Program-made: the position numbers and the translations under genes
In this document: positions 26,893-26,927 of the stretch, piece by piece
Numbering within the stretch: the first letter of the stretch is position 1
How the letters are laid out: every line of letters begins with the position of its first letter
Origin: Arabidopsis thaliana
Lineage: Eukaryota; Streptophyta; Magnoliopsida; Brassicales; Brassicaceae
Direction of reading: 5' to 3'
Length of the DNA stretch: 64,000 bases
NCBI RefSeq assembly: GCF_000001735.4
Contig: NC_003076.8
Span: 5,146,001 to 5,210,000, forward strand
Notes under the pieces: model-generated
Seen by the model: the letters and a program-made list of their open reading frames with translations, nothing else
Database searches by the model: none
Told to the model about the DNA's origin: nothing

Positions 26893-26927
26893 GTGTAAAG
26901 TGTAAAGTGTAAAGTGTAAAGTGTAAA
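26893..26927. repeat. Five tandem GTGTAAA units in the CONSTANS promoter (DOF/CDF-type sites)
   Basis: Five perfect 7-bp units run head to tail, about 196-230 bp upstream of the CO ATG. Each of the four internal junctions creates AAAG, the core recognised by DOF factors, so four evenly spaced sites result on the strand opposite the gene. CYCLING DOF FACTORs are known repressors of CO acting through DOF sites in its promoter. COL1 keeps a single GTGTAAAC in the matching place (31809-31815). Confidence 0.85.

Follow-up and report, generated by a model that had tools for sequence, protein, structure and literature searches.

The heptamer array upstream of CONSTANS in Arabidopsis thaliana is very probably the known 4X promoter repeat, tuning CDF control that it did not create

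In the 64,000 nucleotides of Arabidopsis thaliana DNA that we analyzed (here called the window), a perfect array of 7-bp units stands upstream of CONSTANS (CO). We put the probability at about 0.93 that it is the known CTTTACA repeat of the CO promoter in its 4X form (Col-0, haplotype A), that it was derived on the CO branch, and that it tunes control by CYCLING DOF FACTORs (CDFs) without having created it. Overall, the feature is known, and what we add on its evolution is modest. The array is an experimentally tested example of how gaining or losing one small promoter repeat unit alters a life-history trait. Our additions are the polarity obtained with COL2, the shorter spacer in CO, and an excess of AAAGTG words outside the array; they suggest that experiments confined to the array may overlook some of the Dof control of CO. 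The features are listed in Table 1.

Table 1. Features of the window, in window coordinates
Feature	Position	Strand	Remarks
tRNA-Ile (AAT) gene	11639-11713		
tRNA-Asp (GTC) gene	15512-15583		
CO-COL1 homology, coding plus proximal promoter block 2	25917..26887	-	COL1 30739-31669; BLAST
CONSTANS, first 240 codons of open frame	25978..26697	-	ATG at 26697; B-box zinc fingers
Genotyping amplicon, COSSLP01F/R	26777..26991		each primer one exact match (26777 and 26972); primers from PMC3997802
CO promoter repeat, five GTGTAAA units, four Dof cores, 4X allele	26893..26927	+	sequence, assembly searches, PMC3997802
Conserved promoter block 1, upstream of array in CO sense, contains GGGTCC	26919..26991	-	homologous to COL1 31807-31878 and to COL2 promoter
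GGACCA class II TCP word	27016..27021	-	-324 from CO ATG
AAAGTG/CACTTT words outside array, 12 sites	27369..29956	both	+ strand: 27370, 27428, 28145, 28925, 29445, 29522, 29939, 29951; - strand: 28189, 28892, 28955, 28965
Further conserved upstream block	27598..27738		homologous to 32361-32514 upstream of COL1, 73%, E 7e-15
COL1 stretch between two CO-homologous segments, unmatched in CO, where CO has array	31670..31806		BLAST
Single GTGTAAA unit upstream of COL1, edge without AAAG	31809..31815	+	

Identity and rarity of the array

The open frame on the reverse strand is CO of A. thaliana, as exact matches of published CO primers indicate, and it is adjoined by COL1, whose ATG is at 31473. Read from the sequence, GTGTAAA is repeated five times without error (CTTTACA on the CO sense strand), 196 to 230 bp upstream of the CO ATG. 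The window spans 5146001-5210000 of contig 5 in its own assembly, which puts the array at 5172893. The unit junctions form CTTT/AAAG Dof cores at -224, -217, -210, and -203 from the ATG, with a spacing of 7 bp, which bears out the sequence-only reading of five perfect units creating four evenly spaced AAAG cores. With AAAG taken as the core of a CDF/Dof site, the array holds four predicted sites.

Perfect heptamer repeats with at least two copies occur at seven places in the window including the array, and only the array has at least three. Apart from poly-A/T, at least three perfect copies were seen in 0 of 200 resampled windows, and there was no such array in 20 other 10-kb pieces (200 kb) of the genome. 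The resampled windows, like our shuffled sequences, were drawn from dinucleotide transitions; single-base shuffles were used for Dof-core counts in intervals. When its own assembly was searched (119.7 Mb, 7 contigs) by a DNA search that can skip very common words, (GTGTAAA)x3 was not found elsewhere, and the 35-bp array had no second match with up to 3 mismatches. Two units in a row gave 16 matches, 4 inside the array and 12 elsewhere, compared with 8 for the reversed control pattern. At this level we claim no genome-wide GTGTAAA regulon, and that candidate was dropped.

The array is already known. Rosas et al. 2014 (PMC3997802) describe the repeat with 2X, 3X, and 4X alleles, where 4X, the copy number of Col-0, means four complete CTTTACA units and one incomplete unit. 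The window is 4X; its four CTTT cores correspond to the four complete Dof sites of Col-0. The published repeat and our array agree in gene, unit, and position as well as in copy number and genotyping primers, and we found no difference between them. Ten outer primers of Rosas et al. were tried, and nine match the window exactly, the genotyping pair flanking the array with one site for each primer. The matching primers are COSSLP01F/R, COP02F/R and COR (with added tails removed), COF, CO1165F/R, and COrev. No match within the window was found for COfor, a cDNA primer that may span the intron. The primers for engineered 3X and 2X repeats (COP4mR and COP3mR), by contrast with the outer ones, do not match, which identifies the allele in the window as 4X.

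Among 25 accessions, 4X was found in 7, 3X in 17, and 2X in 1 (Cvi-0) (PMC3997802), and according to earlier work cited there CDF1 binds the CTTTACA repeat. Transgenes in which the Col-0 promoter carries engineered repeat numbers differ in bolting time and expression rhythm, 4X plants bolting later than 3X plants (PMC3997802). In published work the delay with more units is clearest in FRI-active backgrounds. In the congener A. lyrata, CO is reported to carry a single complete copy plus a truncated one (PMC3997802). The CO promoter of A. arenosa also varies (PMC6049958), and a transgene of its 5-copy GTGTAAA allele gave lower midday CO expression and later flowering than the 3-copy allele. This CO-A/CO-B variant shares unit and promoter with the window array. 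Unlike the A. thaliana array, it belongs to another species, contrasts 3 with 5 copies, and is confounded by coding differences; as the alleles also differ by 14 coding SNPs, and as the coding sequence of the 5-copy allele looks ancestral, the repeat is a candidate cause only (PMC6049958).

Two statements in the sequence-only reading are therefore published results: CDF/DOF factors repress CO, with the array cores being published CDF/Dof sites (PMC3997802), and natural variation of Dof sites in the CO promoter, to which it referred only loosely, is tied to flowering (PMC3997802, PMC6049958). Its description of the array as a mutable dosage knob holds insofar as natural copy-number variation affects flowering, but the knob is not simply repressive. 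With more units, total reporter expression goes up while the daytime trough becomes relatively deeper (PMC3997802). Because total expression rises with copies, heterozygotes have about 1.5-fold more of the 4X transcript, and the behavior of 2X constructs is irregular (PMC3997802), additive repression does not explain all published data.

Comparison with COL1 and COL2

To polarize the repeat, COL2 of the same genome was taken as the outgroup paralogue; the comparison covers CO, COL1, and COL2 of this one genome. All three promoters have GGGTCC followed by ATAGGARGAGRTGTTTWCACTT. In CO, the TTTACAC of this shared block is followed by four more, while COL1 runs on with TTATTGAG and COL2 with TTACAGAAG, so that neither has a CTTT there. 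COL1 and COL2 each have one unit-like heptamer and then TTA, which makes CTTA and not CTTT. The COL1 unit, GTGTAAACACC, lies 336 bp from the COL1 ATG, and its edge reads TAAG instead of AAAG. This agrees with the earlier statement that the homologous COL1 block has one unit and no AAAG junction, and the array is absent from the COL1 and COL2 promoters of this genome.

The sequence beside the array can indeed be aligned between CO and COL1, as had been noted: BLAST matches block 1 to its COL1 counterpart with 76.7% identity (E 2e-8), the match extending over the array's final 9 bp. Local alignment scores of the block were 37 with COL1 and 32 with COL2, compared with maxima of 24 and 25 in 1000 shuffles. 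E-INS-i, the local block alignment, and BLAST of CO against COL1 were concordant; an L-INS-i alignment put block 1 in the wrong place and was discarded. As both COL1 and COL2, the outgroup paralogue, show only one heptamer and no Dof core, the expansion is, on promoter sequence, derived on the CO branch. In the abstract of Simon et al. 2015, CO reportedly originates at the root of the Brassicaceae, together with cis-regulatory change. COL1 and COL2 are considered ancestral, with CO having arisen by duplication within the Brassicaceae (PMC5853477, citing Simon et al. 2015), and the divergence of CO, COL1, and COL2 studied by Simon et al. likewise involves promoter change after duplication in the origin of CO's role (via PMC5495492 and PMC5853477).

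The spacer next to the array also differs among the paralogues. From the ancestral TTT[A/T]CAC to the next conserved block there are 33 bp in CO, 78 bp in COL2, and 139 bp in COL1, and 28 bp of the CO interval are repeat. The homology of block 2 stops 5 bp short of the array, and the next homologous segment begins inside the array end. The spacers themselves have no reliable alignment; since both paralogues are longer, loss in CO would be the simpler reading. By position, CO 26888-26918, which is mostly repeat, corresponds to the unmatched COL1 stretch.

Motifs elsewhere in the CO upstream region

AAAGTG, the array's own core plus its 3' flank, was first spotted by eye, and the ranking of all words came afterwards. 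We ranked words in the CO-COL1 intergenic region over 3.5 kb (26698-30240), with expectations taken from the remainder of the window. Once the array is masked, AAAGTG ranks first of the 1376 six-letter words present, at 12 seen versus 2.8 expected (nominal p 4e-5, about 0.05 after multiplication by 1376). AAAAGTG, which may resemble preferred Dof sites, ranks first of 2504 seven-letter words under the same masking (nominal p 4e-5, about 0.11 after multiplication by 2504) and sixth of 2510 when the array is left unmasked. Across 260 stretches of 3.5 kb from 20 background loci, the AAAGTG count never reached 12, the largest being 10. The 1.2 kb upstream of COL1 lacks the word and the 3.9 kb upstream of COL2 has it 4 times, and AAAAGTG numbers 8 in the 3.5 kb of CO, 0 in COL1, and 2 in COL2. 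A search for longer repeats within 26700-30300 as a source of the excess gave short, weak pairs only. As the background loci were not matched for intergenic sequence, we treat the excess as a lead: CDF input may be distributed along the CO upstream region. Plain AAAG/CTTT counts were dropped as a hallmark of CO, 8 of the 20 background loci having a 3.5-kb stretch that equals the masked CO upstream region. We recognized no treatment of the dispersed words or of the shorter spacer in the literature searched, in which Simon et al. 2015 is represented through citing papers.

The class II TCP word GGACCA occurs at -1484, -1371, and -324 in the 1.5 kb upstream of CO, and the corresponding 1.5 kb of COL1 and of COL2 has none. 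This is in line with published CO-specific TCP sites; GGACCA is enriched in CO homologues (PMC5495492, citing Simon et al. 2015). The word at -324 is probably the published site at -263 to -257, as the offset fits a 61-bp 5' UTR. A G-box (GCCACGTGT, 26817-26822) is conserved in all three genes, with CACGTG at -125 in CO, -133 in COL1, and -146 in COL2. The further conserved block lies about 0.9 to 1 kb upstream of both CO and COL1.

Possible roles of the array

According to published work, CDF1 and its relatives would bind the CTTT core formed wherever two units join, repressing CO by day. CDFs would occupy the cores in the morning and be stripped from them by GI-FKF1 in the afternoon, and activators would act later, TCP4 at GGACCA and FBH at E-boxes (PMC3997802, PMC5495492). 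Both kinds of word are present upstream of CO. More units would mean a deeper daytime trough and later flowering, as has been published, and slippage of the short repeat would add or remove Dof sites. The array is most likely the adjustable part of CDF repression, a tuner and not the creator of it.

The sequence-only reading went further in proposing that repeat expansion after duplication gave CO its CDF control. The expansion part agrees with the single heptamers of COL1 and COL2; the control part we consider unlikely. The homologous blocks of COL1 and COL2 do lack a Dof core, the cores of CO are much denser (4 in the 33 bp corresponding to the array, compared with 6 in 139 bp of COL1 and 2 in 78 bp of COL2), and COL1 and COL2 peak at dawn while CO peaks in the afternoon (PMC5853477). 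The density, however, is higher because the CO interval is shorter. Dof cores are also present nearby in COL1 and COL2, with similar totals in the proximal 500 bp (13 in CO, 11 in COL1, and 16 in COL2). CO of A. lyrata is reported to have one complete unit and a truncated one (PMC3997802), CO of A. thaliana carries the dispersed AAAGTG words beyond the array, and conservation of Dof, class II TCP, and E-box elements among Brassicaceae CO promoters has been described (PMC5495492, citing Simon et al. 2015). The evidence does not support the array as the sole basis of CDF control.

Perfect short repeats slip readily, and the array might also be the neutral outcome of slippage in a promoter that tolerates it, with the flowering effects coming from linked variation. 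The variation of copy number both between and within Arabidopsis species would suit such an origin, but the neutral reading is contradicted by the transgenes with engineered repeats in a constant Col-0 promoter, whose bolting and rhythms differ (PMC3997802), and we regard it as very improbable. Somewhat less remote, though still improbable, is an effect of helical phase, whereby 4X would differ from 3X by one in-phase pair of Dof sites, beyond one extra site. At 10.5 bp per turn, a 7-bp period places successive sites at 0, 0.67, 0.33, 0, and 0.67 turns, and the fourth site would be the first in phase with the first, three units being 21 bp or two turns. The non-linear effects of 2X, 3X, and 4X (PMC3997802) are compatible with this, and phase may be one possible reason why total expression climbs as copies are added; on the other hand, its basis is arithmetic only, and Dof sites may act independently. 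A broader scenario, doubtful but less so than the others, would have the CO branch lose most of the spacer, grow the array in its place, and gain or keep AAAGTG words over 3.3 kb, giving a distributed CDF platform in which the array is the adjustable part and phase drives a non-linear step from 3X to 4X.

Other observations in the window

Besides the two tRNA genes, the window has diverged 63/81-bp repeats at 42895-43172, within an open frame on the reverse strand (42491-43501) that we take to belong to the trichome-birefringence-like family. The repeats encode Ser/Pro-rich repeats ahead of PMR5N and PC-Esterase domains.
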